The notes under the pieces were generated by a model, which searched no databases, was not told the origin of the DNA, and saw only the letters and a program-made list of their open reading frames with translations. Made by a program: the position numbers and the translations under genes. A stretch of 64,000 bases of DNA from contig NZ_NFLL01000008.1 in NCBI RefSeq assembly GCF_002160895.1, positions 1-64,000 on the forward strand. The letters run 5' to 3'. This stretch comes from Faecalibacterium sp. An122. Lineage in GTDB: Bacteria; Bacillota; Clostridia; Oscillospirales; Ruminococcaceae. This document shows positions 2,333-58,133 of this stretch, piece after piece. Position 1 is the first letter of the stretch. Every line of letters begins with the position of its first letter.

Positions 2333-2383
2333 TTGACAAGTAAACTTGTCTGTGCTATCCTGAATATGCAAACAAAACTTGTC
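2333..2383 (+). promoter_or_regulatory. promoter with GACAAGT-N2-ACTTGTC operator, copy 1
   Basis: TTGACA (2333-2338), a 17-bp spacer and TATCCT (2356-2361) form a sigma-A promoter. A perfect 7-bp inverted repeat, GACAAGT-AA-ACTTGTC (2335-2350), overlaps the -35 element. A further half-site ACTTGTC lies at 2377-2383. The same promoter, palindrome and half-site, with identical spacing, occur at 58083-58133 ahead of a related gene, so this is very likely a shared repressor operator. Confidence 0.8.
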
Positions 2384-2405
2384 GTACCTGAGGGGAGGAG
2401 ATCCA

Positions 2406-2720
2406 ATGGACAAAGAAGAAATTTTGGCCAAGAGCCGTCAGGAAAACCGCAACGGCGACGAGCGGGACCGGGAGATTGCGTCCAGGTCCGCTCTGGTGGG
2501 CTTTGTGGGAATGTCGGCGGCCTATGTGGTGATGCTGCTGCTGGAAGTATTTTTGAAGGGCCGCACGGGTTACAACCTGATCGTTCTGTTCTCGGTGTTT
2601 CTGGCCTCCAGCGGCATCAGCCGCTACCGGATGAGCGGGAGCAAAATCTATCTGTTCGCCGCTGCCTGCTGGATTCTCAGCGCGGTGGTCTGGTTCGTCC
2701 TCTATCTGTGGAGAGGCTGA
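2406..2720 (+). CDS. small membrane protein, DUF6442-like (paralogue of 58155-58481)
   Basis: A 104-residue protein starting at ATG 2406 behind GGGGAGGAG. The N-terminus MDKEEILAKSRQE is nearly the same as that of the 58.15-kb protein and is followed by a charged stretch and three hydrophobic segments (about residues 28-46, 53-69 and 80-100). This is the pattern of the clostridial DUF6442 group; I assign it from memory of the N-terminus and layout. Unlike the second copy, it has no HTH gene directly downstream; the nearby XRE gene is convergent. It shares the second copy's operator and is probably under the same regulator. Function unknown. Confidence 0.75.
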   Translation: MDKEEILAKSRQENRNGDERDREIASRSALVGFVGMSAAYVVMLLLEVFLKGRTGYNLIVLFSVFLASSGISRYRMSGSKIYLFAAACWILSAVVWFVLYLWRG

Positions 2721-2728
2721 TATAAGGA

Positions 2729-2765
2729 AAAACCCCTGCTTTCCGGGACGGACGGCAGGGGTTTT
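2729..2765. terminator. bidirectional terminator
   Basis: An 11-bp stem (AAAACCCCTGC pairing with GCAGGGGTTTT) has A-rich and T-rich flanks. It can end both the + gene at 2406-2720 and the convergent minus gene at 3215-2769. Confidence 0.85.
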
Positions 2766-2768
2766 GGT

Positions 2769-3215
2769 TTATTTCTTGTTCCAGGTGTGGCCCAGAATGT
2801 CTTTCAGCACCAGCATGGCATCCAGCTGGTTGTAGCCGTACCGCTTCTGGAGGCTGTCCAGCAGCTGATGCAGCCGGGCGGCGTAGTCCGCCATGTCCAC
2901 CGTCTCCTGGTAGGTGTTCAGAACCGGGTACTTTTTGCCCCAGACGGCGGTCCAGTTCACTTTCTGCTGCTTCTCCTCGCTGATGCTGTCGATGGCCTGC
3001 TGGATTTCCTGCACGTCGGGGTCCAGCTCGATCAGCTCGTCCAGGGTCATGTGATACAGCACCGCCAGCTTTTTGGCCTGGCGGATGTCGGGCAGCGTCT
3101 CGTCCAGCTCCCACTTGGAGATGGTCTGGCGGCTGACCCCCAGTTTGGCGGCCACGTCCTCCTGGGACAGGCCGCTCTTTTTCCGGGCTTTGAAGAGATT
3201 GTTTCCTAAACGCAT
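2769..3215 (-). CDS. XRE-family HTH regulator with C-terminal sensory or partner domain
   Basis: A 148-residue protein; ATG 3215 follows AAGGAGG, which fixes the start against longer upstream extensions. Residues about 5-60 are a classical HTH (KSGLSQEDVAAKLGVSRQTI). The remaining 85 residues are helical and charged, with no recognised domain. Proteins of this shape are common orphan regulators in Clostridia. It converges on the DUF6442-like gene and diverges from the M23 gene; whether it controls either is unknown. Confidence 0.8.
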   Translation of the reverse strand: MRLGNNLFKARKKSGLSQEDVAAKLGVSRQTISKWELDETLPDIRQAKKLAVLYHMTLDELIELDPDVQEIQQAIDSISEEKQQKVNWTAVWGKKYPVLNTYQETVDMADYAARLHQLLDSLQKRYGYNQLDAMLVLKDILGHTWNKK

Positions 3216-3423
3216 GGCGCTCGCCTCCTTTTTTGCACCATTATAAAAGAGGGTGTGGAAAATGTCCACCAACGCCGCCTGCCATTTCCGCCCGTTTTCC
3301 TGACTTGGGGCTGGCCGCATTTTATCCCCGGAAAGTTGGCCTTTGGGTGAATATTCGGGCGGGAAGTGTCTCAAACTAAGGGCAACACCCGTACACAGGT
3401 TTCAACCGAAGGAGAATCAAACG

Positions 3424-4197
3424 ATGGAGCATATCAGGAATTTTCTGCGGGGCAAGGGCTTTGTGCTGGCTCTGCTGGCCTGCGTGGCGGCGGCTGCAGC
3501 CGTCGGCGTGTGGGCCGTGCGGACGGTCCGGGATCAGATGGCCGAGGATCTGGGCAAAAACCCCAGCCAGAGCATCACCGGGGAGGAGACCTTCCCCGGC
3601 ATCGACCCCGAAATCCAACAGGACACGGAGGAACAGCTATGGGAACAGGAATCCACCAGCGCGGCCCAGTCGGTGGCCGACGTGCCCGAATCCAGCTCGT
3701 CTGGCGCATCCTCTGGTGCGTCGTCTGGATCTGGTTCGGTGTCCGAACCTTCCGAGCTGCAAACCGAATCGCCCATTGCCAGCGCATCAGCCGGCTCGGG
3801 CTATACGCGGCCTGTCTCTGGTCAGGTGCTCGCCGTCTGGAGCGGGGACGAGCTGGTCTATAACGAGACCCTGGGCGACTGGCGCACCCACAACGGCACC
3901 GACTACGCCTGCAAGGCAGGGGAGGACGTGCTGGCCCCGGTGGCCGGCACCGTCGAGAGCCTGACCGCAGAGGGCAACTGGGGCGTGGTGGCCTCCATCC
4001 GTGACGCCGAGGGCCGTCTGTGGCGGATCTCGGCCCTGGAGGACGCCGCCGTCCAGCAGGGCGACGCCGTCACCTCCGGCCAGAAGCTGGGCCAGGCCGG
4101 CACCATCACCGGCGAGAGCGCCCTGGAATCCCATATCCATCTGGAAGTGCTGGATGGAGACAAATATCTGGACCCTGTCAAGCTGATCGGCAGCTGA
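3424..4197 (+). CDS. M23/LytM-domain membrane protein, SpoIIQ-like
   Basis: A 257-residue protein starting at ATG 3424. It has a short cytoplasmic tail, one membrane segment (about residues 12-33), a long Ser/Gly/Glu-rich linker (60-120) and a C-terminal LytM domain. Both zinc motifs are intact: H-x-G-x-D in THNGTDYAC (about residue 158) and H-x-H in SHIHLEV (about residue 240). Active SpoIIQ proteins of Clostridia have this layout and a similar domain start; they degrade peptidoglycan and anchor the SpoIIQ-SpoIIIAH channel around the forespore. No other sporulation gene is nearby, so a vegetative wall hydrolase is equally possible. A terminator follows. Confidence 0.7.
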   Translation: MEHIRNFLRGKGFVLALLACVAAAAAVGVWAVRTVRDQMAEDLGKNPSQSITGEETFPGIDPEIQQDTEEQLWEQESTSAAQSVADVPESSSSGASSGASSGSGSVSEPSELQTESPIASASAGSGYTRPVSGQVLAVWSGDELVYNETLGDWRTHNGTDYACKAGEDVLAPVAGTVESLTAEGNWGVVASIRDAEGRLWRISALEDAAVQQGDAVTSGQKLGQAGTITGESALESHIHLEVLDGDKYLDPVKLIGS

Positions 4198-4210
4198 CAG
4201 CATCATGGAA

Positions 4211-4247
4211 CGGCAGGCGCTGCGGCGTCCTGCCGCTCCTTTTTTTT
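4211..4247 (+). terminator. rho-independent terminator after the M23 gene
   Basis: CGGCAGG (4211-4217) pairs with CCTGCCG (4229-4235), followed by eight T residues at 4240-4247. Confidence 0.8.
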
Positions 4248-4252
4248 CGCGA

Positions 4253-4281
4253 TTGCTTTTGCGGCCCGATTCTGGTATTAT
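4253..4281 (+). promoter_or_regulatory. promoter of the flavoprotein gene
   Basis: TTGCTT (4253-4258), a 17-bp spacer and TATTAT (4276-4281) sit about 40 bp before the start codon at 4321. Confidence 0.6.
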
Positions 4282-4320
4282 TAAAAAGTACGGAATCTGA
4301 CGAAAAAGGGGCGTTCATCC

Positions 4321-5592
4321 ATGGCAGAAGTTCTGATCGTGGGGGCGGGCGCGGCGGGCCTGATGGCCGCCGGCGCCGCTGCACGGCGGGGGCACAGCGT
4401 GACGGTGCTGGAGCACACCGACAAGCCGGGACAGAAAATTCTGGTCACCGGCAAGGGCCGGTGCAACCTCACCAACGACTGCGACGAGGAGGAATTTCTG
4501 CGCCATGTGCGCACCAACGGGCGGTTTTTGTATTCCTCCCTCTATGCCTTCCCGCCCGCCAAAACCATGGAATTGTTTGAGAGCCTGGGGGTCGCCCTCA
4601 AGGTGGAACGGGGACGCCGGGTGTTCCCGGTGTCGGACAAGGCCGCTGAGGTGCGGCAGGCCCTGCTGGACTATGCCGCGGGGGCAAAGATCCTCCACGA
4701 CGGGGCCGAGGCCCTGCTGCTGGAACCGCTGGACCCGCCCGCTCCCTCCGCCGACGGCAAAAAGCCCAAGAAGGGCCCCGCCTGCCGCTGTCTGGGCGTC
4801 AAGGGAACCTCGGGCAGGAGCTACCGGGCGGACTGCGTCCTGGTGGCCACCGGCGGCATGAGCTACCCGGTCACCGGGTCCACCGGCGACGGCTACCGTC
4901 TGGCCCGTCAGGCGGGCCACACCATTGTGGAACCGGTGCCCAGCCTGGTGAGCCTGGTCTCCCGGGACCCCGACTGCAAAAAGATGATGGGGCTGGCCCT
5001 CAAAAACGTGAAGCTCACCCTTTTTGAGGACAACAAGGCCATTTTCAGCGAACAGGGCGAGATGCTGTTCACCCATTTCGGCATCAGCGGGCCCTTGACC
5101 CTCAGCGCATCCAGCCATCTGGGGGATATGAAAAAACACCGCTATCATGTGGAAATTGACTTGAAGCCTGCTCTCAGTGAGGAGCAGCTGTATGACCGCA
5201 TCACCCGGGACTTTGCCCTGCTGGCCAACCATGCGGCCCAGGGGGCCCTGGTCAAGCTGCTGCCGGCCAGCATGCAGCCGGTGATGGTGGAGCGGTGGGG
5301 CATCGACCCCGCCACCCGGGCCAACCAGATCACCCGGGAACAGAAGCGGGAACTGGTGCGTCTGTGCAAGCACTGGACCGTTTCGGTGGACCAGCGGGGC
5401 GATTTGGCCCACGCGGTCATCACGTCGGGAGGCGTATCGGTGCGGGAGGTGGACCCCCGCACCATGGAGAGCAAAAAAGCCGCGAACCTCTATTTCGCGG
5501 GGGAAGTGCTGGACGTGGACGCCTACACCGGCGGGTACAACCTGCAAATCGCCTTCTGCACCGGGCAGGCCTTCGCGGCCAACCTGGACTGA
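4321..5592 (+). CDS. BaiN/HI0933-family FAD-dependent oxidoreductase
   Basis: A 423-residue flavoprotein. An N-terminal Rossmann FAD site (VGAGAAGLMAAGAAARRG, about residues 7-24) is followed by the family signature GKGRCNLTN (about 44-52) and, near the C-terminus, GEVLDVDAYTGGYNLQ. Length matches the HI0933/YhiN family. Members were linked to bile-acid 7-dehydroxylation as BaiN, but most are housekeeping flavoproteins of unknown substrate, and nothing here is a bai gene. The family and FAD use are secure; the reaction is not. It probably starts a run of + strand genes through cmk and plsC. Confidence 0.85.
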   Translation: MAEVLIVGAGAAGLMAAGAAARRGHSVTVLEHTDKPGQKILVTGKGRCNLTNDCDEEEFLRHVRTNGRFLYSSLYAFPPAKTMELFESLGVALKVERGRRVFPVSDKAAEVRQALLDYAAGAKILHDGAEALLLEPLDPPAPSADGKKPKKGPACRCLGVKGTSGRSYRADCVLVATGGMSYPVTGSTGDGYRLARQAGHTIVEPVPSLVSLVSRDPDCKKMMGLALKNVKLTLFEDNKAIFSEQGEMLFTHFGISGPLTLSASSHLGDMKKHRYHVEIDLKPALSEEQLYDRITRDFALLANHAAQGALVKLLPASMQPVMVERWGIDPATRANQITREQKRELVRLCKHWTVSVDQRGDLAHAVITSGGVSVREVDPRTMESKKAANLYFAGEVLDVDAYTGGYNLQIAFCTGQAFAANLD

Positions 5593-5622
5593 GGCGCTTT
5601 GACATAAAGGAGGTAACAACCT

Positions 5623-5943
5623 ATGATTATTACGACGACACCGTCCGTGGAGGGAATGCGGATTGTGGAATACAAGGGAATTGTCTGCGGCGAGGTGATC
5701 TCGGGCGTCAACTTCATCCGGGATATCGCTGCATCCTTCACCAACTTTTTGGGCGGCCGGTCGGGCAGCTATGAAGACGAGCTGATCCAGGCCCGCCAGA
5801 ACGCTCTGGCCGAAATGCAGGAGCGGGCGTCCGCCATGGGCGCCAACGCCATTGTGGGGGTGGACATCGACTATGAGGTCCTGGGCACCGACAATGGGAT
5901 GCTGATGGTCACAGCCAGCGGCACGGCTGTGGTCCTGGGGTAA
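5623..5943 (+). CDS. YbjQ/UPF0145 family protein
   Basis: A 106-residue protein behind AAGGAGGTAAC. It has the family hallmarks: an N-terminal [18 protein letters not shown] start, the GEVISGVNF turn, the [16 protein letters not shown] helix, and the [12 protein letters not shown] strand. YbjQ proteins form pentameric rings in solved structures and are annotated as heavy-metal-binding only by tradition. No metal-binding cysteine cluster is visible. Function unknown; the family call is firm. Confidence 0.9.
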
Positions 5944-6003
5944 AAACGAAAAAAGTTTCAGGCGGCGGGAATGTTCCGCCTGCCGGAAGGAGAATATAGA
6001 AGT

Positions 6004-6675
6004 ATGATATCGGTTGCGATCGACGGTCCTGCCGGGGCGGGCAAATCCACCCTGGCCCGGCAGCTGGCCCGGGACCTGGGATATATTTATGTGGACACCG
6101 GCGCCATGTACCGGTCGGTGGGGCTGTACGCCCTGCGGGCCGGGCAGGACCCTGCCGACCAGGCAGCGGTCAACCGGCTGCTGCCCGAAATTCAGCTGCG
6201 TCTGGCTGTGCTGGACGGCGAACAGCATATTTATTTGAATGACGAGGACGTCAGCGGCCTGATCCGCACCGAACAGGTGGGGATGGCCGCCTCGGCTGTG
6301 GGTGCGAATCCCACGGTGCGGGCCTTCCTGCTGGATCTCCAGCGCAATATGGCCAAGACCGGGAACATCCTGATGGACGGCCGGGACATCGGCACGGTGA
6401 TCCTGCCCAACGCCACCGTCAAGATCTTCCTGACCGCCAGCCCTGAGGCCCGGGCACGCCGCCGCTGGCTGGAATACCAGCAGGCCGGCCGCAGCGAGAG
6501 CTTTGAGGAAGTGCTGGCCGACGTCAAGCGCCGGGACGAACAGGACGGCAGCCGCGCCGCGGCGCCCCTGCGCCAGGCCGAGGACGCCGTCCTGCTGGAC
6601 ACCTCGGACATGGACCTGGCCCAGAGCCTGGACGCCATGAAACAAATCATCAAAGAGCGTGTGGGGGAAATGTGA
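6004..6675 (+). CDS. cmk: cytidylate kinase
   Basis: A 223-residue (d)CMP kinase that makes CDP or dCDP from ATP and CMP or dCMP. The P-loop GPAGAGKSTLA (about residues 8-18), the DTGAMYRSVGLYA nucleotide-binding segment (about 33-45) and GRDIGTVILP (about 131-140) are all intact. ATG 6004 follows GGAAGGAGAA; a longer in-frame extension lacks a ribosome site. The stop overlaps the plsC start as ATGA, so the two are translationally coupled, the common cmk-plsC-ispH order of Clostridia. Confidence 0.97.
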   Translation: MISVAIDGPAGAGKSTLARQLARDLGYIYVDTGAMYRSVGLYALRAGQDPADQAAVNRLLPEIQLRLAVLDGEQHIYLNDEDVSGLIRTEQVGMAASAVGANPTVRAFLLDLQRNMAKTGNILMDGRDIGTVILPNATVKIFLTASPEARARRRWLEYQQAGRSESFEEVLADVKRRDEQDGSRAAAPLRQAEDAVLLDTSDMDLAQSLDAMKQIIKERVGEM

Positions 6676-7316
6676 TGCTGTATCCTATCCTTCTGTCGGG
6701 GGCATGGGTGATTTTTCATCTCCTGTTCCGCATCCAGGTGATCGGACGGGAAAACCTGAAAAAAATCCAGTCGGCCGGCTTCATCCTGGCGCCCACCCAT
6801 ATCTCGGCCATCGACCCGGTGTTCGTCGCCATTGCCCGGTTCTGGGGCAAGCGGATGGTGGTCTTTGGCAAAAAGGAACTGTTTGAGATCAACCCGGTGG
6901 TCACCTGGTTCCTCAAACAGTGCGGATGTGTGATGGTCCGCGGCACCAAGGACGAGATGGAAACCCTCCAGAACACCATCGAAGAGTGCAAAAAGGGCCG
7001 CGGCCTGCTGCTGTTCCCCGAGGGAACCCGCGAAAAAGAGGGCAAGCTGATCCAGCCCAAGAGCGGAATGTTTGTGGTGGCGGCGGGAGCCGGCACCGAC
7101 GTGATCCCCTGCCGGGTGCTGTACGGCACCCCCGACGGACACATGCGTCTGTTCTGCCGGGTGCGGGTGGTCTTTGGGGAGCCCATGCCGGCCGCCCAGT
7201 TCGCCATGGAGAGCCGCCGCGACATCAAGACCCTGCGGGCCAACAAGCAGGCCCTGACCGACGCCTGGATTGACCTGGGCCAGCGGTATGGATTTGATGG
7301 CGCTGCCTCTGCATAA
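6675..7316 (+). CDS. plsC: 1-acyl-sn-glycerol-3-phosphate acyltransferase
   Basis: A 213-residue membrane-associated acyltransferase that converts lysophosphatidate to phosphatidate. It has an N-terminal hydrophobic segment and the four PlsC blocks. The catalytic H-x4-D motif reads THISAID (about residues 39-45) and the substrate-binding block reads FPEGTREKEGKL (about 112-123). The start overlaps the cmk stop; a GTG one codon upstream (6672) is also possible. Next in line is ispH, 48 bp downstream. Confidence 0.93.
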   Translation: MLYPILLSGAWVIFHLLFRIQVIGRENLKKIQSAGFILAPTHISAIDPVFVAIARFWGKRMVVFGKKELFEINPVVTWFLKQCGCVMVRGTKDEMETLQNTIEECKKGRGLLLFPEGTREKEGKLIQPKSGMFVVAAGAGTDVIPCRVLYGTPDGHMRLFCRVRVVFGEPMPAAQFAMESRRDIKTLRANKQALTDAWIDLGQRYGFDGAASA

Positions 7317-7364
7317 ATTCACCCGCAGTGCGCATACTGACATTATGTCCGGAGGAACCGCGCT

Positions 7365-9272
7365 ATGGAAATACGTTTGGCTAAGACGGCCGGCTTCTGC
7401 TTTGGAGTGGACCGGGCTGTCCAGCTGACCTGCCGCCTGCTGGATGCAGGAGAAAAGGTGGCCACCCTGGGCCCCCTGATCCACAATCCTCAGGTGGTGG
7501 CGGACCTGGAGCGCCGGGGCGCCAAGGTGGTCCAGGCCCCCGGGGATGTGCCCCCGGGATACCAGGTGGTCATCCGCAGCCACGGGGTGCCCCAGAGCGT
7601 CTACGATGAACTGACAGCCCTGGGCGTGTCCTGGCAGGACGCCACCTGCCCCTTTGTCGCCAAGATCCACGCCATCGCCCGGCGGGCCGAACAGGAGGGG
7701 GTCTGCCTGGCTGTGGCCGGCGACCGGACCCACCCGGAGGTCCAGGGAATCGTCGGGCATACCCGTGGGGAGTCTTTCGTCTTTGCAGATTTGGCCGAAT
7801 TGAAGGGCTGGAAAGGCCCTGAAAATCCCGAAAAACGGATGTTTGTGGTTGCTCAGACCACATTTCAAGCAACAAAATGGGAAGAATGTTCGGAGTTTCT
7901 GAAAAAAGCCTATACAAACGCCGAAATTTTTGATACAATATGTAATGCGACGTGGGCGAGGCAACAGGAAGCGGAAGACCTCAGCCGTCAGTGCGACCTT
8001 GTGGTCGTGATTGGCGGTCATCATTCTTCTAATACCCAGAAGCTAGTCGCAGTCGCCGCAAAACATACGCGGGCCGTTACGGTTGAAACAGCAAGCGAGC
8101 TTCAGCCCGAGTGGTTTGCAGATGTGAGGACGGCGGGCGTGACAGCAGGGGCTTCAACGCCATCGTCTATTATTGAGGAGGTACTTAACAGTATGACAGA
8201 AATCAATGACAGCATGAGCTTCGAGGAGATGCTGAACGCATCCGAGGAAAAACGTGTTCATGCAGGCAGTATTGTGAAAGGAGTCGTGACCAGCATTTCC
8301 GCCAACGAGATCCAGGTCGACATCGGCGCAAAGCAGACCGGTTTTGTCCGTCTGAGCGAGCTGACCGACGACTCCTCCGCAAAGGTCGAGGACCTGGTCA
8401 AGGTTGGCGATGAGCTGGACCTCATCGTCGAGAAGGTTATGGATCAGGATGGCGTCATCCAGCTCTCCCGCAAGAAGCTTGCCTCGCGCAAGGGCATGGA
8501 AGAGATCGCCAAGGCTGCTGAGTCCGGCGAGGTCGTCGAGGGCGACGTCACCGAGTACAACAAGGGCGGCGTTGTGGTCAACGTCAAGGGCGTGAAGGTC
8601 TTTGTGCCCCGCTCTCAGGCCACCATGCGCCGTGACGAGGACTACACCGCTCTGGTGGGCAAGCACGTCCGCCTGGTCGTTACCGAGTGCTCCGGCCGCA
8701 AGATCGTGGGTAGCATCAACAAGGTCACCGCTGAGGAGAACAAGGCCCGCCGTGAGGAGTTCTGGGCCAGCGTCGAGATCGGCAAGACCTACACCGGCGT
8801 GGTCAAGAGCCTGACCTCTTACGGCGCCTTCGTCGATATCGGCGGTGTTGACGGCCTGTGCCACATCAGCGAGCTGAGCTGGAACCGCATCAAGCATCCC
8901 TCCGAGGTCGTCAGCGTGGGCGACTCCATCGAGGTGTATGTGAAGGATATCGACCAGGAGAACCACAAGGTTTCTCTGGGCTACAAGAAGAGCGAGGACA
9001 ACCCCTGGGAGCAGCTGCGCAACAACTACCCCGTGGGCAGCACCTTCCACGCTCCGGTTGTGTCTCTGACCAAGTTCGGCGCCTTTGTCCGCATCCTGCC
9101 CGGCGTGGACGGCCTGGTCCACATCAGCGAGATCAGCAATGATCGCGTGGAGAAGGTCTCCGACGTTCTGAAGGTCGGCGACATGGTGGACGTCAAGCTG
9201 CTGGATGTCGACTTCGACAAGAAGCGCATCAGCCTGTCCATGAAGGCTCTGCTGAAGGAAGACGAGCAGTAA
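7365..9272 (+). CDS. ispH: HMBPP reductase (IspH) fused to a four-repeat S1 RNA-binding protein
   Basis: A 635-residue fusion found in Clostridia. Residues 1-276 are IspH, the last enzyme of the MEP isoprenoid pathway, which reduces HMBPP to IPP and DMAPP on a 4Fe-4S cluster. Its three cluster cysteines (C12, C95, C193) and substrate histidines (H40, H73, H123) are present. Residues about 297-620 hold four S1 OB-fold repeats, as in clostridial RpsA-like proteins. The stretch 7830-8190 is visibly AT-richer than its surroundings. A ribosome site and ATG at 8193 fall exactly at the domain joint, so a free S1 protein may also be made. Confidence 0.93.
8175..8195 (+). promoter_or_regulatory. internal ribosome-binding site and ATG at the IspH/S1 joint
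   Basis: GAGGAGGT at 8175-8182 precedes an in-frame ATG at 8193, codon 277 of the fusion. The IspH family ends here and the linker to the first S1 repeat begins. The 11-nt gap is long but usable. Initiation here would give a roughly 359-residue stand-alone S1 protein. This is inference; no clear promoter was found inside ispH. Confidence 0.5.
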
Positions 9273-9301
9273 TCTGCCTTTTCTGACACTGTGAAAAAAC
9301 T

Positions 9302-9336
9302 ACCCCGTTGCCGGTTCAAGGCGGCGGGGTGTTTTT
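9302..9336 (+). terminator. terminator after ispH-S1
   Basis: A ten-base stem rich in G-C pairs (CCCCGTTGCC with GGCGGCGGGG, allowing G-U pairs) is followed by TGTTTTT. Confidence 0.75.
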
Positions 9337-9401
9337 GGTAACTGGGGCTTTTGTGAAAAGCTGTGTCCGGCCCGGCCGGGCACAGGACAGGTTGGGACGG
9401 T

Positions 9402-16096: not shown

Positions 16097-16224
16097 GGGT
16101 GCGCCTCCTTTCGCGCTTTTCTGTTATCGTATCGCAAAGCCGCCGGAACGTCAAGTATACATGGCATTCCGGCGGCCCTGCGGAAAAATTCTCCTTATTT
16201 CACAAAAAAGTTGACCGCATTTTG

Positions 16225-50801: not shown

Positions 50802-50840
50802 AAACCGGCCGGGCATCCCCTGAACCCCCATAGAACCGAA

Positions 50841-50878
50841 AAAAGAGCCGTGGAGCTTTGCCGCTCCACGGCTCTTTT
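50841..50878. terminator. bidirectional terminator
   Basis: AAAAGAGCCGTGGAGC (50841-50856) pairs with GCTCCACGGCTCTTTT (50863-50878). It separates the convergent reductase and proA genes. Confidence 0.92.
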
Positions 50879-50899
50879 GTTTGCGCTGAAGGCGGGCGG

Positions 50900-52162
50900 T
50901 CAGCGAATTTGACCGTTGCCGCGGATGATGTACTTGTAGGTGCACAGCTCGGCCAGGCCCATGGGACCCCGGGCGTGGAGCTTCTGGGTGGAAATACCCA
51001 TCTCGCAGCCCAGGCCGAACTCGCCGCCGTCGGTGAAACGGGTGGAACAGTTGACGTACACCGCCGCGCTGTCCACCGCTGCGGTGAACAGGTCGATGTG
51101 TTCCTGGGTCTGGCTCAGGATGGCCTCGCTGTGGCCGGTGGAATGCTCGGCAATGTGGCCGATGGCCTGCTGCACGTCCTCCACAACCCCCACCGCCAGG
51201 ATGTAGTCCAGGAACTCGGTGTCAAAGTCCTGGGGCCCGGCGGGGGTGCCGGGAATGATGGCCGCGGCCTTCTGGTCCAGCCGCAGCTCCACCGGATGAA
51301 GGCCGCGGACCTCCCGGTCGGGGCCCAGACGCTGGGCCAGCCTGGGCAGAAATGCCCCGGCAATGTCCTTGTGCACCAGGCAGACCTCCTCGGCGTTGCA
51401 GACGCTGGGACGGCTGGCCTTGGCGTTTTCGATGATGTCCAGTGCCTTGTCCTGATCGGCGGTGTCGTCCACATAGATGTGGCAGATGCCGGTGCCGGTC
51501 TGGATGCAGGGAACCTTGGCGTTTTCCACGCAGGCCCGGATCAGGCCCGCGCCGCCCCGGGGGATCAGCAGATCCACATAGCCCACGGCGGTCATCAGGG
51601 CGTTGGCGGAGGCGTGGGTGGTGTCCTCAATCAGGCTGACGGCGGCAGCCGGCAGACCGACGGCCGTCACCCCCTGGCGCAGGGCGTCCACAATGGCCTT
51701 GCTGGAGCGCCAGGCCTCTTTGCCGCAGCGCAGAACACAGGCGTTGCCGCTCTTGAGGGCCAGGGCCGCCGCGTCACTGGTGACGTTGGGGCGGCTCTCG
51801 TAAATGATGGCCACCACGCCCATGGGAACGGCGGTCTTTTCGATCACCAGGCCGTTGGGCCGCTCGATGCGGCGCAGCACGGCGCCCACCGGGTCGGGCA
51901 GGGCCGCCACGTCCCGGATGCCCTGGGCCATGCCGTCCAGGCGCTGCTGGTTCAGGGCCAGACGGTCCAGCATCACCTCCGAGATCCGCCCCCGGGCGGC
52001 CTCGATGTCGGCGGCGTTGGCGGCCAGAATGGCGGCCCGGTTGGCCGGGTTGTCCAGGGCGTCGGCCATCCCCATCAGGGCATGGTTCCGCTGCCGGGTA
52101 TCGGCCAGGGCCAGAGAGCCTTTGGCGTCACGGGCGGCGGTGAGAATCTCCTGTGTGGTCAT
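50900..52162 (-). CDS. proA: gamma-glutamyl phosphate reductase
   Basis: A 420-residue NADPH-dependent enzyme of proline synthesis that reduces glutamyl-5-phosphate to glutamate-5-semialdehyde. It has the aldehyde-dehydrogenase fold with the nucleophile cysteine in SVCNAEEVCLV, VIYESRPNVTSDAAALALKS near the N-terminus, and STRFTDGGEFGLGCEMGIST near the end. It is last in proC-proB-proA. Confidence 0.97.
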   Translation of the reverse strand: MTTQEILTAARDAKGSLALADTRQRNHALMGMADALDNPANRAAILAANAADIEAARGRISEVMLDRLALNQQRLDGMAQGIRDVAALPDPVGAVLRRIERPNGLVIEKTAVPMGVVAIIYESRPNVTSDAAALALKSGNACVLRCGKEAWRSSKAIVDALRQGVTAVGLPAAAVSLIEDTTHASANALMTAVGYVDLLIPRGGAGLIRACVENAKVPCIQTGTGICHIYVDDTADQDKALDIIENAKASRPSVCNAEEVCLVHKDIAGAFLPRLAQRLGPDREVRGLHPVELRLDQKAAAIIPGTPAGPQDFDTEFLDYILAVGVVEDVQQAIGHIAEHSTGHSEAILSQTQEHIDLFTAAVDSAAVYVNCSTRFTDGGEFGLGCEMGISTQKLHARGPMGLAELCTYKYIIRGNGQIR

Positions 52163-52177
52163 GGGTCAACCTCCTTT

Positions 52178-52960
52178 TTATTTGTTGGCCCGGGGCCGCG
52201 CCGCAAACCGGGTGCCGGCGGCTTCGCCCTCGGCAATCCTGTACAGCAGCTCGGGATGGGCTCCATTGGCAATCACCATTTCCACCCCGTCGGCGGTGAC
52301 CATCCGGGCGGCGCGCAGCTTGGTGGCCATGCCGCCGGTGCCCAGGGCCGAACCGGCCCCGTCCGACAGGCTCATGATGTCCTCGGTGACGTTCTCCACC
52401 AGGGGAATCAGCTGGGCGTCGGGATGGGTGCGGGGGTTGGCGGTGTACAGCCCGTCAATGTCGCTGAGCAGCACCAGCAGGTCCGCCCGGGCACAGCAGG
52501 CCACAATGGCCGCCAGGGTGTCGTTGTCGCCGATGGAGGAAATCTCCATGGTGGATACGGTGTCGTTTTCGTTGATGATGGGCAGCGCGCCCAGCTCCAG
52601 CAGGCGGTAGAGGGTGTTCTCGAAGTTCTGGCGGCGTTCGGTGTGCTCCACGTCTACGCCCGTCAGCAGAATCTGGGCTACGGTGTGGTTGTACTCGGCA
52701 AACAGCCGGTCATAGGTGTACATCAGCTCGCACTGGCCCACCGCCGCACAGGCCTGCTTGCCCGCCATGTCGGCGGGACGGCTGGGCAGGGACAGCTTGC
52801 CCACGCCCATGCCGATGGCGCCCGAGGAAACCAGAATCATCTCGTGGCCGGCGTTTTTCAGGTCGCTCAGGACCTTCACCAGCTCCTCGGTGCGGCGGAT
52901 GTTCAGGTGGCCGGTGGGATAGGTGAGGGTAGAGGTGCCGACCTTGACGACAATTCGCAT
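52178..52960 (-). CDS. proB: glutamate 5-kinase, short form without PUA domain
   Basis: A 260-residue amino-acid kinase that starts proline synthesis. The ATP/substrate motifs are VVKVGTSTLTYPTG (3-16), LVSSGAIGMG (about 44-53), INENDTVS (about 134-141) and GTGGMATKLRAA (about 207-218). The C-terminal PUA domain of E. coli-type ProB is absent, as in several Firmicutes. ATG 52960 lies 4 bp after the proC stop. Confidence 0.95.
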   Translation of the reverse strand: MRIVVKVGTSTLTYPTGHLNIRRTEELVKVLSDLKNAGHEMILVSSGAIGMGVGKLSLPSRPADMAGKQACAAVGQCELMYTYDRLFAEYNHTVAQILLTGVDVEHTERRQNFENTLYRLLELGALPIINENDTVSTMEISSIGDNDTLAAIVACCARADLLVLLSDIDGLYTANPRTHPDAQLIPLVENVTEDIMSLSDGAGSALGTGGMATKLRAARMVTADGVEMVIANGAHPELLYRIAEGEAAGTRFAARPRANK

Positions 52961-52964
52961 GGCA

Positions 52965-53765
52965 TCAGCCCTCCCGCAGCTTGATGGTCTTTTCATAGGC
53001 GGCGATGACCGCGTCGGTCACCGCCCCGCGGAAGCCCCGCTCCTCCAGCACCCGGACACCCTGAATGGTGGTGCCGCCGGGGCTGCAGACCGAGTCCTTC
53101 AGGACGCCGGGATGGCTGCCGGTGTCCAGCATCATCTTGGCGCTGCCCAGCAGCATCTGGGCGGCGTACTGCAGCGCCTTGGCCCGGGGCATTCCGCAGG
53201 CCACGCCGCCGTCCGCCAGGGCCTCAATGAACTGATACGCCCAGGCCGGGCCGCAGCCCGACACGCAGCAGGCGGCGTCCATCAGGTTTTCGGGCAGATT
53301 GTCCAGCATGCCGGCCCCCGCCATCAGCTGGCAGAAGGCTTCTTCCTCGCCGTCCTCCAGGCCCAGGGTGCAGTAGGGAATCATCCCGGCGCCGGCCCCC
53401 GAGGGAATGTTGGGGTTGATCCGCACCACCGGGTAGTCGCCCCCGGCCATCTGGCGGATCTGCACCATGGTCAGGCCCGCCGCCATGGTGCACAGGATAA
53501 ACCGCTCTTTGCGGCCCGCCAGCACCGGCTGCAGCTGGGCCAGCATGTCGGCCATCATCTGGGGTTTCACGCCCAGGAATACCACATCGCACAGGGCGGC
53601 GTCCTGGTTGGAGCCGGTGCGGCAGCCCAGCTCAGCCGCCAGGGCCTCGGCCTTGGCGGGGGTGCGGTTTGCCAAAACAACATTGCCCGGCTCCACCGTG
53701 CGGCAGATCGCCCGTGCCAGGGCTCCGCCCATGTTTCCGCAGCCAATAAAACCAATCGTTTTCAT
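52965..53765 (-). CDS. proC: pyrroline-5-carboxylate reductase
   Basis: A 266-residue enzyme making proline from pyrroline-5-carboxylate with NAD(P)H. The dinucleotide site is TIGFIGCGNMGGALARAI (3-20), followed by NIPSGAGAGM and the C-terminal signature DSVCSPGGTTIQGVRVLEE. First gene of the complete proline operon. ATG 53765 follows AAAGGAGGAAATCC. Confidence 0.97.
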   Translation of the reverse strand: MKTIGFIGCGNMGGALARAICRTVEPGNVVLANRTPAKAEALAAELGCRTGSNQDAALCDVVFLGVKPQMMADMLAQLQPVLAGRKERFILCTMAAGLTMVQIRQMAGGDYPVVRINPNIPSGAGAGMIPYCTLGLEDGEEEAFCQLMAGAGMLDNLPENLMDAACCVSGCGPAWAYQFIEALADGGVACGMPRAKALQYAAQMLLGSAKMMLDTGSHPGVLKDSVCSPGGTTIQGVRVLEERGFRGAVTDAVIAAYEKTIKLREG

Positions 53766-54027
53766 CCGGATTTCCTCCTTTACTTCCGATGGGACAGGAT
53801 ATGACGCGCCCGGCCCTGTCCGTTTGGCCGGGGTTCGCCCCGGGTGCCAGAGCCGCAGGCCTGCCGGATTCACAGGCGGACGCGGCGCCGGGACGCGGTG
53901 TCCGGCGGCGTGCGTCACCCCTCGATGCGACCCGCCAGTCCGCGGCATCTCAGGGGAAAACCCCCGCCCTGCGGCCGGCGCGCCCCTGCAGCCTGCCGCA
54001 CGGCGGCACGCTGAAAATGCTGCTTCC
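53766..54027 (-). other. long GC-rich leader of the proC-proB-proA operon
   Basis: About 250 nt separate the promoter from proC. The leader is GC-rich and full of hairpins, for example CCGGGG-CGAA-CCCCGG near 53830-53845. I find no T-box core (TGGNACCGCG) or other riboswitch that I recognise, although T-boxes for tRNA-Pro occur on such operons. There is no reading frame of note. Confidence 0.45.
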
Positions 54028-54056
54028 ATATTACCCGGAATGGCCCGCAAAATCAA
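54028..54056 (-). promoter_or_regulatory. promoter of the proline operon
   Basis: Minus strand TTGATT (54051-54056), 17 bp, TAATAT (54028-54033). It stands back-to-back with the + strand promoter at 54074. Confidence 0.75.
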
Positions 54057-54073
54057 GTCCTCTATACGGACGG

Positions 54074-54103
54074 TTGACAAAACCTGCCTGCGCGGTGTAC
54101 AAT
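54074..54103 (+). promoter_or_regulatory. promoter of lipoprotein A
   Basis: TTGACA (54074-54079), 18 bp, TACAAT (54098-54103). Its -35 lies 17 bp from that of the divergent proline promoter. Confidence 0.8.
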
Positions 54104-54155
54104 AAAAACACAATGGGCTTGTGTGCCGACATGAGCCGGGAAGGGGGTATGCGCG

Positions 54156-54734
54156 TTGCGCAAGATGAAGCACGGACTGGTCCTGCTGCTGGCAGTGCTG
54201 GCTCTTTTGGTGTTGAGCGGCTGTTCGCAGCCCAAACAGGTTGGGACGCGCAGCATGGCCGGCGTGGCGGATCTGATCGCCAATATGTCCGCCAAGACAG
54301 TGGTCACCAACGATGCCCCGCTGGACAGCGGCACCGCCGCTGCCGCCACCTATATGCTCAAGAGCCGCAGCGCCCCCGGCACCGGGGAGGACAACGGCAT
54401 TCTGGCGGATGCGATGCGGGAAGCCTCCGACACCAGCCGCTACAATGCCCTCAGCGCCCCCACCGAGAGCGGCGTGACCCGGATGTCCCGGCTGTTCATC
54501 TATCCTGGCGACTGGAGCGAGGACGAAGTGGCCCGGGCCATCGTGAATAAGATCGACGAAATGGCGGATGAATTGCTGAGTAGCTCCTGCTCCCGCCAGG
54601 TGGTGATCGACAGTTATTTCAACTATACATATACCTATTCGGTCAGCGTGCGCCAGGCGTTCAGCGATCAGGCGTCGGCCTGGGTGGTGGGAATCGGCAT
54701 CAACCAGACCGCAAAAGAGGAACATAAAACCTGA
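54156..54734 (+). CDS. tandem lipoprotein A, unknown family
   Basis: A 192-residue lipoprotein. TTG 54156 is 8 nt after AAGGGGG; ATG 54165 is the alternative. The signal ends in the lipobox LSGC (Cys23). The body has LFIYPGDWSEDEVARAIVNK (about 112-131) and a C-terminal strand region YFNYTYTYSVSV, then WVVGIGINQ. These two patterns recur in the next two genes (IYKGDYDTATVANKI and WVVGIQI in B; YTYTYTGEVAM in C), so the three are divergent tandem paralogues. I recognise no known family; a surface role is inferred from the lipobox. Confidence 0.8.
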   Translation: MRKMKHGLVLLLAVLALLVLSGCSQPKQVGTRSMAGVADLIANMSAKTVVTNDAPLDSGTAAAATYMLKSRSAPGTGEDNGILADAMREASDTSRYNALSAPTESGVTRMSRLFIYPGDWSEDEVARAIVNKIDEMADELLSSSCSRQVVIDSYFNYTYTYSVSVRQAFSDQASAWVVGIGINQTAKEEHKT

Positions 54735-54795
54735 TTTACGATAAAAATTTACAATAAAAAAGCAGTAAAAATATTTGAGTTTTGGGTGAAATATC

Positions 54796-54890
54796 ATCCC
54801 ACCAAAGTTGGGAAACAGAACCCCAACTTTGAAAACAAAAGCTCGAATGCCCACAAGCGCACCTGCCGAAAGGCAAGGGCGCTTGTTTTT
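54796..54890 (+). terminator. hairpin and terminator after lipoprotein A
   Basis: A 10-bp stem CAAAGTTGGG/CCCAACTTTG (about 54798-54825) is followed by a proper terminator, ACAAGCGC (54853-54860) with GCGCTTGT (54879-54886) and a T run. The 337-bp gap is otherwise AT-rich with the next promoter. Confidence 0.8.
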
Positions 54891-54938
54891 ATTAAATGTA
54901 AATTTTTTTAGAAGAACTCTTGGCGAAAAATGGTACGA

Positions 54939-54967
54939 TTGACAAATCGCGGAAGTTGTACTATTAT
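54939..54967 (+). promoter_or_regulatory. promoter of lipoprotein B
   Basis: TTGACA (54939-54944), 17 bp, TATTAT (54962-54967). The 105-nt leader is AT-rich and ends in AAGGAGGTAAAGG. Confidence 0.85.
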
Positions 54968-55071
54968 ATGACTAGACGGGGTAGGGGCCGTCCTTATCCC
55001 GCAAAGGTCCAAGACTCAAAACAGGTAACCCCAGGCAAAATTTTACTTCTTTAGAAGGAGGTAAAGGTCCA

Positions 55072-55686
55072 ATGAAACTCAAGCGCATTCTTTCCCTGGC
55101 GCTGTCCGGCGTCCTGGCAGTCAGCATGCTGACTGCTTGCGGCTTCGGCGGCAATGCAGACAAGCTGCCCGGCAAAAACGAGGTGACTCCGGTCTCGATG
55201 ACTCTTGCTGTGAATAGTGCTATTAACAGCAAGCCGAAGTTTGAGAGCGACAACACCCTGTCCAAGGCTGTGCAGTCTGCTGCAAGCACTCTGACTGCTA
55301 ATCAGGTGAAGACGGTTGACACGATCGCTCCGCAGGCTATCCTTGACATGGTGCGTCAGATGACCTATACGAGCGCAAAGGGTGAGCTGGACAATCCTGC
55401 AGCATGGAGCGCATTTAACAGCGATGCAAGTTTCTCCACTGTCCGCATTTACAAGGGCGACTATGACACTGCCACGGTCGCCAACAAGATCAAGACGGAT
55501 GTCGTCGATAAGATTGCTCTGACCAGCGACAAGGCAACCAAGGGCAACGACTTTACTTGCGATTATGACTGCTATGTTGCAGGCTGCAAGGTTACCGTTG
55601 CTGAGGCCGCTGCTGATGGTTCGGACGTGACGGTCTGGGTCGTAGGCATTCAGATTGACCGTGATGCGAAAGCTGTGAAATCTTAA
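55072..55686 (+). CDS. tandem lipoprotein B, unknown family
   Basis: A 204-residue lipoprotein behind AGAAGGAGG. Its signal peptide, MKLKRILSLALSGVLAVSML with lipobox LTAC, is nearly the same as that of protein C. The body keeps VRIYKGDYDTATVANKIKTD (about 123-142) and ends in VTVWVVGIQIDRD, matching protein A. Codons use more T-ending forms (GCT, GTT, ACT) than the neighbourhood. Its own promoter and three tandem downstream hairpins make it an independent unit. Function unknown. Confidence 0.85.
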   Translation: MKLKRILSLALSGVLAVSMLTACGFGGNADKLPGKNEVTPVSMTLAVNSAINSKPKFESDNTLSKAVQSAASTLTANQVKTVDTIAPQAILDMVRQMTYTSAKGELDNPAAWSAFNSDASFSTVRIYKGDYDTATVANKIKTDVVDKIALTSDKATKGNDFTCDYDCYVAGCKVTVAEAAADGSDVTVWVVGIQIDRDAKAVKS

Positions 55687-55726
55687 TCGTTGATCCTCAA
55701 TGACCCTATTTCCTTTTCGTGAGGAG

Positions 55727-55855
55727 AAAGCCCCTGACGGTGCGACGTTGGGGGCTTTTTAGTGTCAAAGAGACAGAGAAAGTCTCTTTTGTTTCATAGC
55801 CTAAACAAAAATCCACTGCATGGGAATACCCTGTGCGGTGGATTTTTGTTTTTGA
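55727..55855 (+). terminator. three tandem terminator hairpins after lipoprotein B
   Basis: First, AAAGCCCC with GGGGCTTT and T5 (55727-55760). Second, AAAGAGAC with GTCTCTTT (55767-55790). Third, a long stem AAAAATCCAC with GTGGATTTTT (about 55806-55854). This much termination suggests heavy transcription. Beyond it lies an inverted repeat TTTATC-AACGTA/TACGTT-GGATAAA (about 55921-55947). Confidence 0.85.
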
Positions 55856-55989
55856 TCCATCGCACTTATTTTGCGTCCCAAAAATGCGAAACGATGGAAG
55901 ATTCTGGGTGAAAGACCAAAATTTATCAACGTATTTACGTTGGATAAATGCTAAATTTCCCGTTTTTCTCACCTTTTGCCAGTTCTGCC

Positions 55990-56019
55990 TTGACAAAGGA
56001 AACTCTGTTGTGTTAAACT
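55990..56019 (+). promoter_or_regulatory. promoter of lipoprotein C
   Basis: TTGACA (55990-55995), 18 bp, TAAACT (56014-56019). Confidence 0.75.
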
Positions 56020-56101
56020 ATGCTCAAGGAACGGGGATGGTGACCTGTTCCCCAAATGTTTTGGTGCGAGTTACAAACAACAACAAGGAGGAAATTTCCA
56101 A

Positions 56102-56707
56102 ATGAAACTGAATAAGGTTCTGGCTCTGGCTCTGTCCGGCGTTATGGCTGTCAGCATGCTGGCTGGCTGCTCGACCAACGGCAACAAGGACGACAACAAG
56201 GACGAGCAGGTTCCTGTTGCTGACACTTCTATTGCTGGCATTCTGAACGATGAGCTGAAGGATGAGAAGATTGATGCTGTTTCTTTCCAGTATAGCACCG
56301 ATCTGCAGGATGCTGTTGAGCAGGTTCTGCGCGTTAATGGTGGCCTGAAGAGCACTACTCAGGGCGACGATATCAGCAAGGACATCGTTACCTATCAGGA
56401 GTACAGCCGTGAGGTCTTTGGGTCTCTGGGTAGCAAGGCTGGCAGCCCGGTCGTTGGCACTAAGGTTGCTGTGAAGACTCAGGTCAATGCTACTGGTAAG
56501 ACTGCCGAAGCAGTGAAGAAGGAAATGGCTCAGGCTATTGCTGATCTGGTTAAGGGTCTGGAGACTGAGGAAGAGGTTGGCAACCTGAAGTACACCTACA
56601 CCTATACTGGTGAAGTTGCTATGGTTACTGCCGAGGATAATGATATGCCTGTCTACCTCGTCACCGCAGTTGTCACTTGCAAGACTTCTGCTCCTGTCGA
56701 GAAGTAA
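56102..56707 (+). CDS. tandem lipoprotein C, unknown family, highly expressed codon style
   Basis: A 201-residue lipoprotein behind AAGGAGGAAATTTCC. The signal MKLNKVLALALSGVMAVSML with lipobox LAGC (Cys22) is almost the same as in B. The mature part begins with a charged, Asn/Asp/Lys-rich linker. The C-terminus has LKYTYTYTGEVAMVTAED and VYLVTAVVT, matching the strand pattern of A and B. Codons are strongly biased to GCT, GTT, GGT and CTG, like the ribosomal genes here, suggesting abundant protein. Function unknown; a secreted substrate or surface binder is only a guess. Confidence 0.85.
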   Translation: MKLNKVLALALSGVMAVSMLAGCSTNGNKDDNKDEQVPVADTSIAGILNDELKDEKIDAVSFQYSTDLQDAVEQVLRVNGGLKSTTQGDDISKDIVTYQEYSREVFGSLGSKAGSPVVGTKVAVKTQVNATGKTAEAVKKEMAQAIADLVKGLETEEEVGNLKYTYTYTGEVAMVTAEDNDMPVYLVTAVVTCKTSAPVEK

Positions 56708-56825
56708 TTTTATAACTAGCTAGGCTATCGTAACTCGTTTACACACTGATTATCGTATGATACAGTCCGTGCGGGGCGCGTGCAGCTGTCGTACCTTTCT
56801 ACGAGGTGACCGCATAACCGCACAA

Positions 56826-56845
56826 TATACGAAGCGCTTCGTATA
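56826..56845. repeat. perfect 20-bp palindrome
   Basis: TATACGAAGCGCTTCGTATA reads the same on both strands. A second small palindrome TACAAA-TTA-TTTGTA follows near 56859-56873. The region 56708-56925 after lipoprotein C has several such inverted repeats and no reading frame; it may be a structured 3' region or a small RNA. Confidence 0.6.
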
Positions 56846-56924
56846 GCACCAAAGGTTTATTACAAATTATTTGTAGTTTGCCGCACCAAAAAAGAACCAG
56901 CTGGGTGTGCAGACCCAGTTTTCC

Positions 56925-56955
56925 GGGGGCGGGCCGCAAGGCCCGCCCCCTTTTT
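56925..56955 (+). terminator. very strong terminator
   Basis: GGGGGCGGGCC (56925-56935), loop GCAA, GGCCCGCCCCC (56940-56950), then TTTTT. A weaker stem CTGGGT/ACCCAG and TTTT precede it. Confidence 0.93.
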
Positions 56956-56988
56956 GGTTTGCAGGGGAGGCCGGCTGCCAGCTTGTGA

Positions 56989-57017
56989 TTGATTTTTCGG
57001 GCCGGACATGGTACACT
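56989..57017 (+). promoter_or_regulatory. promoter of mraY
   Basis: TTGATT (56989-56994), 17 bp, TACACT (57012-57017), about 50 bp before ATG 57068. Confidence 0.7.
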
Positions 57018-57067
57018 TCCTCTGTAGAGAGTACAAGGAATGCAAAAACAGAAATGAGGAAGCTATC

Positions 57068-58027
57068 ATGGTTACAATATTGTTGTCCACCATTGGCCAG
57101 CGGGGTGTGGATGCGCTGGCGTTTGTGCTGGCGTTTGTCCTGACGGCCCTGCTGACCAGTCTGTTCCGCAGCCGGCTGCCCCAGGACCATGGCCGCGCGT
57201 TTGCGGTGGATGGCGCGCTGTCCAAGGGCAAGGCCCGGGGCGCGGGATTGATTTTTGTGCTGTGCATCGTGCTGGTGGCCCTGGCGTTTATGCCGTTCCA
57301 CCTGGAGACGGTCATTTATATGGTCCTGCTCATTGCATCGATGCTGTCGGGGTATCTGGACGATGCCTCGGACACCGCGTGGAACGAGTACAAAAAAGGC
57401 CTGATTGATTTTGTGATTGCGGCGGTGGCCGGCGTCACCTATCTCAACTTCAACGGCTGCGGAGTCCGGTTTTTGAGCTGGTATTTTGTGCTGCCGTACC
57501 CGGTGTACCTGCTGCTGATCATTATCCTGATCTGGGCCAGCATCAATGTGGTGAACTGCACCGACGGCGTGGACGGCCTGTCCGCCAGCCTGGCGGTGGT
57601 GAGCATGGGCACCTTTGCCATGCTGTACGGCGAGTATCTGGGCAGCTACGTCACCGCCACGGTGGCGTTTGTGGGCGCTCTGCTGGCCTATCTGTGGTCC
57701 AACGCCAAGCCCTCCACCGTCCTGATGGGCGACGCGGGCAGCCGCGCCATGGGCTTTTTCCTGGCGGTTCTGGCCCTCAAGTCGGGACATCCCTTTGCCT
57801 TCCTGCTGGCGGCGATGGTGTTTATCCTGGACGGCAGCCTGGGCATCATTAAAATCAGCCTCAAGCGTTTCCTGCACATCAGCGTGCTGAAAAACACCCT
57901 GACCCCCCTTCACGACCACGCCCGCAAGCGGCTGGGCTGGAGCGACGAACAGGTGGTCATCCGTTGGGTGATCGTCCAGTGCGTGGCGTCGGCGGTGCTG
58001 ACGGTGCTGGCAGGCTTCGGCGCATAA
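57068..58027 (+). CDS. mraY: phospho-N-acetylmuramoyl-pentapeptide transferase-type enzyme
   Basis: A 319-residue polytopic membrane enzyme of the MraY/WecA family, which makes lipid I from UDP-MurNAc-pentapeptide and undecaprenyl phosphate. Catalytic residues are visible: the DD pair in SGYLDDASDT (98-99), the Asn and Asp in NCTDGVDGLSAS (163 and 166), and GDAGSRAMGF. The MraY histidine triad (HHH) reads LHDHARKRLGW. It is outside a dcw cluster, which leaves some room for a WecA-like role, but GAGLIF and the overall plan favour MraY. ATG 57068 follows GAGGAAGC. Confidence 0.85.
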   Translation: MVTILLSTIGQRGVDALAFVLAFVLTALLTSLFRSRLPQDHGRAFAVDGALSKGKARGAGLIFVLCIVLVALAFMPFHLETVIYMVLLIASMLSGYLDDASDTAWNEYKKGLIDFVIAAVAGVTYLNFNGCGVRFLSWYFVLPYPVYLLLIIILIWASINVVNCTDGVDGLSASLAVVSMGTFAMLYGEYLGSYVTATVAFVGALLAYLWSNAKPSTVLMGDAGSRAMGFFLAVLALKSGHPFAFLLAAMVFILDGSLGIIKISLKRFLHISVLKNTLTPLHDHARKRLGWSDEQVVIRWVIVQCVASAVLTVLAGFGA

Positions 58028-58037
58028 TGTTTTTACG

Positions 58038-58065
58038 GCCCCGCTGTGATAGGCGGGGCTGTTTT
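58038..58065 (+). terminator. terminator after mraY
   Basis: GCCCCGC (58038-58044) pairs with GCGGGGC (58053-58059), then TGTTTT. Confidence 0.82.
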
Positions 58066-58082
58066 GTATCCCGCCCGGCGTG

Positions 58083-58133
58083 TTGACAAGTACACTTGTC
58101 TGTGTTATACTGAAAATGCAAATAAAACTTGTC
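58083..58133 (+). promoter_or_regulatory. promoter with GACAAGT-N2-ACTTGTC operator, copy 2
   Basis: TTGACA (58083-58088), 17 bp, TATACT (58106-58111). The palindrome GACAAGT-AC-ACTTGTC (58085-58100) overlaps the -35, and a half-site ACTTGTC lies at 58127-58133. Spacing between palindrome and half-site is 42 bp, the same as in copy 1 at 2333-2383. Confidence 0.85.

Follow-up and report, generated by a model that had tools for sequence, protein, structure and literature searches.

Two genes for small membrane proteins of the DUF6442 family lie 56 kb apart, behind the same operator, in a 64,000-nucleotide stretch of Faecalibacterium sp. An122 DNA (contig NZ_NFLL01000008.1, positions 1 to 64,000; hereafter the window). 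Sequence comparison makes it very probable that they belong to a switch resembling CylR1/CylR2, in which a helix-turn-helix (HTH) regulator encoded behind the second gene (locus 2) represses its own operon and also the DUF6442 gene at the other end of the window (locus 1). Locus 2 would be a self-contained cassette, its single operon encoding a small DUF6442 membrane protein together with the CylR2-like HTH protein. A dimer of the latter would bind an array of 16-bp operators, with O1 over the -35 element, O2 near +1, and, at locus 1 and roughly half of the promoters in relatives, O0 near -51. Since binding there is proposed to block RNA polymerase, the HTH protein would repress its own operon; since the same array precedes the locus 1 gene, which lacks an accompanying HTH gene, it would repress that gene in trans. 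Most likely, the membrane proteins use their N-terminal tail to convey a signal arising at the membrane to the HTH protein and so relieve repression, a step modeled on the supposed action of CylR1 on CylR2. We infer binding, repression, and sensing alike, that is, both the role of the HTH protein as repressor and its control by the membrane proteins. The second target in trans is the unusual feature of the proposed circuit.

Operators and genes at the two loci

The palindrome GACAAGTNNACTTGTC (GACAAGT-NN-ACTTGTC) occurs as exact copies at positions 2335 to 2350 and 58085 to 58100, where a preliminary description of the window had placed it over the -35 elements of two promoters. Chance expectation for an exact match of 14 bases is ~0.0002 per 64 kb (64,000/4^14). 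When the whole genome (G000; 3,256,715 bp) was searched with ≤2 mismatches, the palindrome was found at two places, both at these promoters; a control pattern, the palindrome read backwards, gave 8 places under the same mismatch limit. The locus 1 promoter (2333 to 2361, plus strand) reads TTGACA-17-TATCCT, with O1 (GACAAGTAAACTTGTC, 2335 to 2350) covering its -35 element, and the locus 2 promoter (58083 to 58111, plus strand) reads TTGACA-17-TATACT, with the exact palindrome as O1 (GACAAGTACACTTGTC, 58085 to 58100). Both are near consensus, and each carries a TG ahead of the -10 element (extended -10).

The preliminary description also reported an extra half-site 42 bp downstream. Both loci have the half-site ACTTGTC (2377 and 58127), at a distance of 42 bp from where the palindrome starts (33 bp from half-site to half-site), but it belongs to a second operator, O2, as its right half; O2 had been missed together with a third site, O0, at locus 1. 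We built an operator position weight matrix from the O1 and O2 sites of relatives and scored the window with it. The five best 16-mers start at 2335, 58085, 2309, 58118, and 2368 (scores of 26.0, 22.6, 16.8, 15.7, and 14.3, respectively). Because all five lie at these promoters, the half-site is taken as part of O2, and locus 1 as having O0 in addition. The operator-like O0 (GCAAAGAAAACTTTGC, 2309 to 2324, plus strand) is centered 26 bp upstream of O1; locus 2 has no O0. At locus 1, O2 (GCAAACAAAACTTGTC, 2368 to 2383, plus strand) lies near the predicted start site and has an intact right half and a degenerate left half, and at locus 2, O2 (GCAAATAAAACTTGTC, 58118 to 58133, plus strand) was identified by matrix score and degenerate pattern. 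The array is thus predicted to comprise two or three operators per promoter. The sixth-best site (16150 to 16165, score of 12.8) is probably a chance match, located within the loop formed by an inverted repeat between genes (GCCGCCGGAA...TTCCGGCGGC); the seventh scored only 7.2.

A degenerate operator pattern matched five places genome-wide, four of them at these two promoters, and recovered O0; the one further match, on contig C21, is at about chance level (the reversed control gave 1 forward and 2 reverse matches). No wider regulon was found in this genome with either the palindrome at ≤2 mismatches or the degenerate pattern, and the predicted regulon of detectable strength is these two promoters.

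With the start site assumed to be ~7 bp past the -10 element, the centers of O0, O1, and O2 at locus 1 fall near -51, -25, and +8. A site at about -51 is a possible activator position, and the HTH protein could in principle activate rather than repress these promoters. We regard this as very unlikely: O1 overlaps the -35 element and O2 lies at about +8, both of them blocking positions, and near-consensus promoters with an extended -10 element weigh against activation, as does the absence of O0 from locus 2 and from about half of the relatives.

The genes behind the two arrays encode DUF6442 proteins of 104 amino acids (locus 1; 2406 to 2720, plus strand) and 108 amino acids (locus 2; 58155 to 58481, plus strand). 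Both match PF20040 above its curated cutoff of 25 bits (76.2 bits, E value of 2.7e-21, and 37.5 bits, E value of 3.1e-9, respectively), and they are the only PF20040 genes in the genome. The DUF6442 assignment made earlier therefore stands, but the accompanying claim of almost the same N terminus was generous, as a count by eye gives 9 matches in the first 13 residues; overall identity is 19%. Hydropathy gives three segments at locus 1 and two at locus 2, and among 72 aligned family members, 42 have two segments and 30 have three. The locus 1 structure model consists of an N-terminal helix followed by three long helices (pLDDT of 91.5). Mean conservation across the 72 sequences is 34%, with 3.0 bits per residue in the first 20 residues versus 1.6 in the rest, and the conserved N-terminal tail reads MxKEEILxxSRxENxxxD. 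A conserved tail joined to a variable membrane part suggests that the tail contacts the HTH protein while the membrane part senses something variable. The term DUF6442 appeared in no paper of the literature searched.

As described earlier, an HTH gene follows only the second locus. Locus 1 adjoins a different, convergent gene for an XRE-type regulator with a C-terminal extension (open reading frame [ORF] 2769 to 3374, minus strand; probable start at 3215); a related XRE gene stands beside locus 1 in the relative G014. Locus 1 is probably monocistronic because its gene is followed by a terminator-like hairpin (ACCCCTGC...GCAGGGGT, then T-rich sequence; 2732 to 2770, plus strand), which was seen by direct reading and was not returned by an automated terminator scan whose loop limit is 8.

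Might the shared operator be a leftover of a recent promoter duplication, with no regulatory meaning at locus 1? The O1-O2 spacers of the two loci are 79% identical within the genus, versus 61 to 64% to five other lineages, which is why the promoters are thought to share recent ancestry or to have been converted; identity inside each locus is 81 to 82%, barely above the between-locus value. In G016, moreover, the locus 1 operator is degraded. Against this, the two proteins are separate old lineages, with 19% identity and each in its own clade (support of 100 and 99), O1 is exact at both loci in G000, G001, G014, and G024, and locus 1 retains an O0 that locus 2 lacks. Leftover identity is thus an improbable explanation, and regulation of both loci by the HTH protein is preferred. 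Since the protein clades are deeply separate yet the spacers are 79% identical, the promoters look younger than the protein split, and copying or conversion appears likelier than simple cassette duplication; the deeper DUF6442 tree is unsure owing to its long branches.

The cassette in other genomes

In the genus, 12 of 31 genomes encode DUF6442. Locus 1 has orthologues in five (G000, G001, G014, G016, and G024), four of which also carry locus 2 and its HTH gene. The preliminary description had proposed scanning this genome and its relatives for the motif and had held that its absence from orthologous loci would count against a shared regulon; the operator is conserved there. Across 100 genomes (this one included), 13 of 14 exact palindromes lie directly 5′ of a DUF6442 gene, and the remaining one, in G014, sits at a contig edge and continues into unrelated sequence.

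We then used a composite pattern of both operators (TTGACAAGTNNACTTG, 22 to 34 bases, AACTTGNC) to search one genome per species in 84,980 species. The scan gave at least 120 stretches with 121 occurrences, and the counts below are among the matches listed. The pattern demanded CAAGT..ACTTG in O1 and AACTTGNC in O2, and these letters are fully conserved in the scan set because the pattern requires them; no constraint was placed on the -10 element, O0, the O1 right flank, or the left half of O2. Most occurrences came from Clostridia (80 record titles). A DUF6442 gene lies within 700 bp of the composite operator at 108 of 121 occurrences, 18 of which have the gene in tandem (two copies at 11, three at 6, and four at 1). 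Where ≥1,300 bp of downstream sequence was available, 84 of 94 occurrences had DUF6442, and 83 of these 84 had the HTH gene as well. The exception, L159, has the operator and DUF6442 with no HTH gene behind, an arrangement resembling locus 1, and its DUF6442 match is itself incomplete. Beyond the cassette and its antisense readings, no neighbor cluster exceeded 11 of the 108 loci. By these comparisons, the unit is a widespread putative cassette consisting of the operator, one to four DUF6442 genes, and then a CylR2-like HTH gene.

The architecture of the array was compared among promoters after 12 of the 121 occurrences were dropped (six from Streptomyces, the alphaproteobacterium L047, L058 at a contig edge, L117, L143, and L150 on both strands). 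Relatives have a second dyad at O2, mostly in the form of a near-palindrome, with a mean of 5.3 of 7 positions pairing versus a background of 1.8. The centers of O1 and O2 are 33 bp apart in 55 of the 109 promoters and 30 to 40 bp apart in the others, so that the 42-bp spacing seen in the window is not a strict rule. In 62 of 108 promoters, a site upstream of O1 exceeds the 99% level obtained with base-shuffled sequence; in 57 of these, it lies 24 to 28 bp from O1.

Co-occurrence was also assessed in other genome sets. Among 391 genomes of the class, the operator was found in 14 (reversed control, 0 of 391), the HTH protein (E value of 1e-17 or better) in 33, and DUF6442 (≥34 bits) in 27; the HTH protein was present in all 14 operator genomes and all 27 DUF6442 genomes, although relatives share descent and these counts, like those that follow, are not independent events. 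Among 61 relatives, an HTH protein ≥66% identical was found in 14, all with DUF6442. When loci were chosen by protein alone (DUF6442 at ≥40 bits), 37 of 44 had an operator scoring ≥12 within 160 bp, compared with 79 of 1,876 windows of 160 bp taken from those loci, operators included. The cassette also occurs on plasmids: four were opened among 29 plasmid records with an HTH match, and in those of Agathobacter, C. difficile, and Vescimonas, DUF6442 is annotated adjoining the HTH gene, with best operator scores of 19 to 23.

Some arrays precede other genes, in exceptions that were inspected singly and do not form a full count. At L143, the run ahead of DUF6442 encodes an ABC ATPase (ABC_tran, E value of 4e-20) between a small membrane protein and a membrane protein without a Pfam match; in G336 (L247), the array is followed by a gene whose product has a choloylglycine-hydrolase-family domain (E value of 1e-11) and then by DUF6442 and the HTH gene; and at L121, a NUDIX protein takes the corresponding place. 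The transporter or the choloylglycine-hydrolase-family protein in the run may offer hints to function. At six loci taken as Streptomyces (L043, L049, L057, L079, L126, and L144; record titles for four), the composite pattern occurs but neither DUF6442 nor this HTH gene does, and at L043, L049, and L057, the pattern precedes one common unrelated gene; these look like the tandem sites of another regulator. At L117 (Anaerorhabdus furcosa), the pattern precedes a different HTH gene and an ABC transporter, without DUF6442.

The HTH protein as reader of the operator

The proposed repressor (58494 to 58706, plus strand; 70 amino acids; HTH_3, E value of 1.3e-16) is CylR2-like both by sequence (E value of 5e-9) and by fold (1utx; TM of 0.89, rmsd of 0.9, and 37% identity). 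Its model has five helices plus strands at residues 6 to 9 and 66 to 69, the arrangement that we take to define the CylR2 type (a five-helix HTH bundle with a two-stranded sheet, ~66 residues), and its recognition helix spans residues 33 to 41 (RNTISSIET). Mean conservation is 81% (52 sequences). A defense system reading lacked support from PADLOC, which returned no match for either DUF6442 protein and, for the HTH protein, matches confined to the HTH region.

The operator lies at the promoter of the HTH gene's own operon, and the two covary. Residue 34, the second residue of the recognition helix, is Asn in 137 of 151 HTH proteins. Under a uniform site rule, the half-site ACTTGAC (outer flank AC) accompanied 1 of 129 Asn34 proteins versus 5 of 6 Gln34 proteins with a located site (Fisher P value of 1e-7, uncorrected for phylogeny); with 90%-identity representatives, the figures were 1 of 91 and 5 of 6. 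A Lys33 variant (G343) accompanies ACTTGGA. Recognition of the outer bases of the operator falls to the equivalent residues in the 434 repressor. Because residue 34 covaries with the outer half-site bases, the regulator assignment gains support. The next-closest HTH paralogues in the genome (47% and 41% identical) each sit in their own membrane-protein pair with different promoter repeats. On comparative grounds, then, the HTH protein is a well-supported candidate for the reader of these sites, and the earlier proposal of one repressor with two membrane-protein targets draws support from operator conservation, co-occurrence, residue 34 covariation, and the different repeats of the paralogues.

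One of the two paralogue pairs lies in the window, where a small HTH protein (41% identical) and a small hydrophobic protein without a Pfam match are encoded at 1577 to 1050 (minus strand), behind a promoter at ~1664 to 1578 with the -35 element TTGACATTTT and AAATGT/ACATTT repeats (AAATGT...TTGACATTT); this pair is a parallel circuit with a different operator. A third pair of a CylR2-like HTH protein and a membrane protein, at C1:177642 (L161), has GAGATA/TATCTC promoter repeats.

A different, unlinked regulator could instead bind the palindrome, the HTH gene being merely carried in the operon. The convergent XRE gene beside locus 1, with its relative beside locus 1 in G014, would be a candidate. 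Cassettes of other families, however, share the operator, no XRE gene of that type was seen behind locus 2, and the CylR2-like HTH protein accompanies every operator-bearing genome of the class; residue 34 covariation and the distinct repeats at the paralogues' own promoters likewise tell against an outside regulator, which we consider quite unlikely.

Several observations nevertheless weigh against the CylR2-like HTH protein as the repressor of a DUF6442 regulon. In the window, O2 and O0 are imperfect. Six class genomes have the HTH protein without strong DUF6442 (G218, G237, G291 [fragment], G321, G323 [contig edge], and G343 [DUF6442 at 26 bits]). Conversely, two of the 61 relatives have DUF6442 with no HTH protein at the 66% threshold: G046, where DUF6442 is weak (30.7 bits), and G014, which has locus 1 and whose second palindrome enters unrelated sequence at a contig edge. 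Among the 44 loci chosen by protein, 7 have no site scoring ≥12 within 160 bp; in G336, the operator precedes an earlier gene of the run, G035 has a candidate site ~244 bp further upstream, only variant sites occur in G286, in G343, and at the second G185 locus, and no site was found at L195 (G450) or L197 (the first G185 locus). The HTH protein on a Carnobacterium plasmid (75% identical) has neither DUF6442 nor an operator site. In the residue 34 comparison, G330 pairs a Gln34 protein with ACTTGGC, G190 pairs an Asn34 protein with one ACTTGAC half, and 8 of 137 Asn34, 7 of 13 Gln34, and 1 Lys33 protein fell outside the test for want of a located site. Finally, the DUF6442 model had no PDB fold match at an E value of 0.001, and DUF6442 is likened to CylR1 by setting and size, not by sequence comparison.

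If the CylR2-like switch holds, the DUF6442 family gains a testable role, in which its members would work with a CylR2-like repressor and be controlled by it through a defined operator array, in a system spread across Clostridia and some plasmids that gives a simple route to studying how membrane-protein/repressor pairs signal. A more speculative and rather doubtful extension is that DUF6442 proteins are fast-changing membrane sensors reporting to one near-invariant repressor through a fixed tail. Both tandem sets, the largest seen having four copies, and outlying genes of the locus 1 kind might then plug several sensors into one circuit, with residue 34 and the outer operator bases as a code separating circuits.

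Comparison with known systems

The closest likeness is to CylR1/CylR2 of Enterococcus faecalis, where an HTH protein of the same size class (~66 to 70 residues) and the same fold (TM of 0.89) acts on a promoter and has as its partner a small membrane protein with three predicted helices. CylR1/CylR2 are divergent from the cytolysin operon, which they control, as stated in PMC3709268, and PMC3709268 and PMC11343131 describe the signal transfer from CylR1 to CylR2 as not currently understood. The systems differ in that the pair described here is predicted to control its own operon and a second membrane-gene copy. No bacteriocin or lantibiotic operon was recognized beside the cassette, although no search aimed at lantibiotic genes was made, and the ORFs around locus 2 read by eye as housekeeping genes.

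SdpI/SdpR of Bacillus subtilis presumably offers a second parallel, as we understand it to combine a membrane protein and an autorepressor in one operon, with the membrane protein thought to relieve repression; SdpR we take to be of the ArsR type and SdpI to be an immunity protein, and no homology is claimed. The HTH protein also has fold matches to restriction-modification C proteins such as C.AhdI. Such proteins, too, are small autoregulators of the HTH_3 type that act on tandem operators in their own promoters, but their partner is presumably a restriction system rather than a membrane protein. Taken with these systems, the DUF6442 cassette would be a newly described, widespread case of a known type of switch, that of a small membrane protein paired with an HTH repressor.

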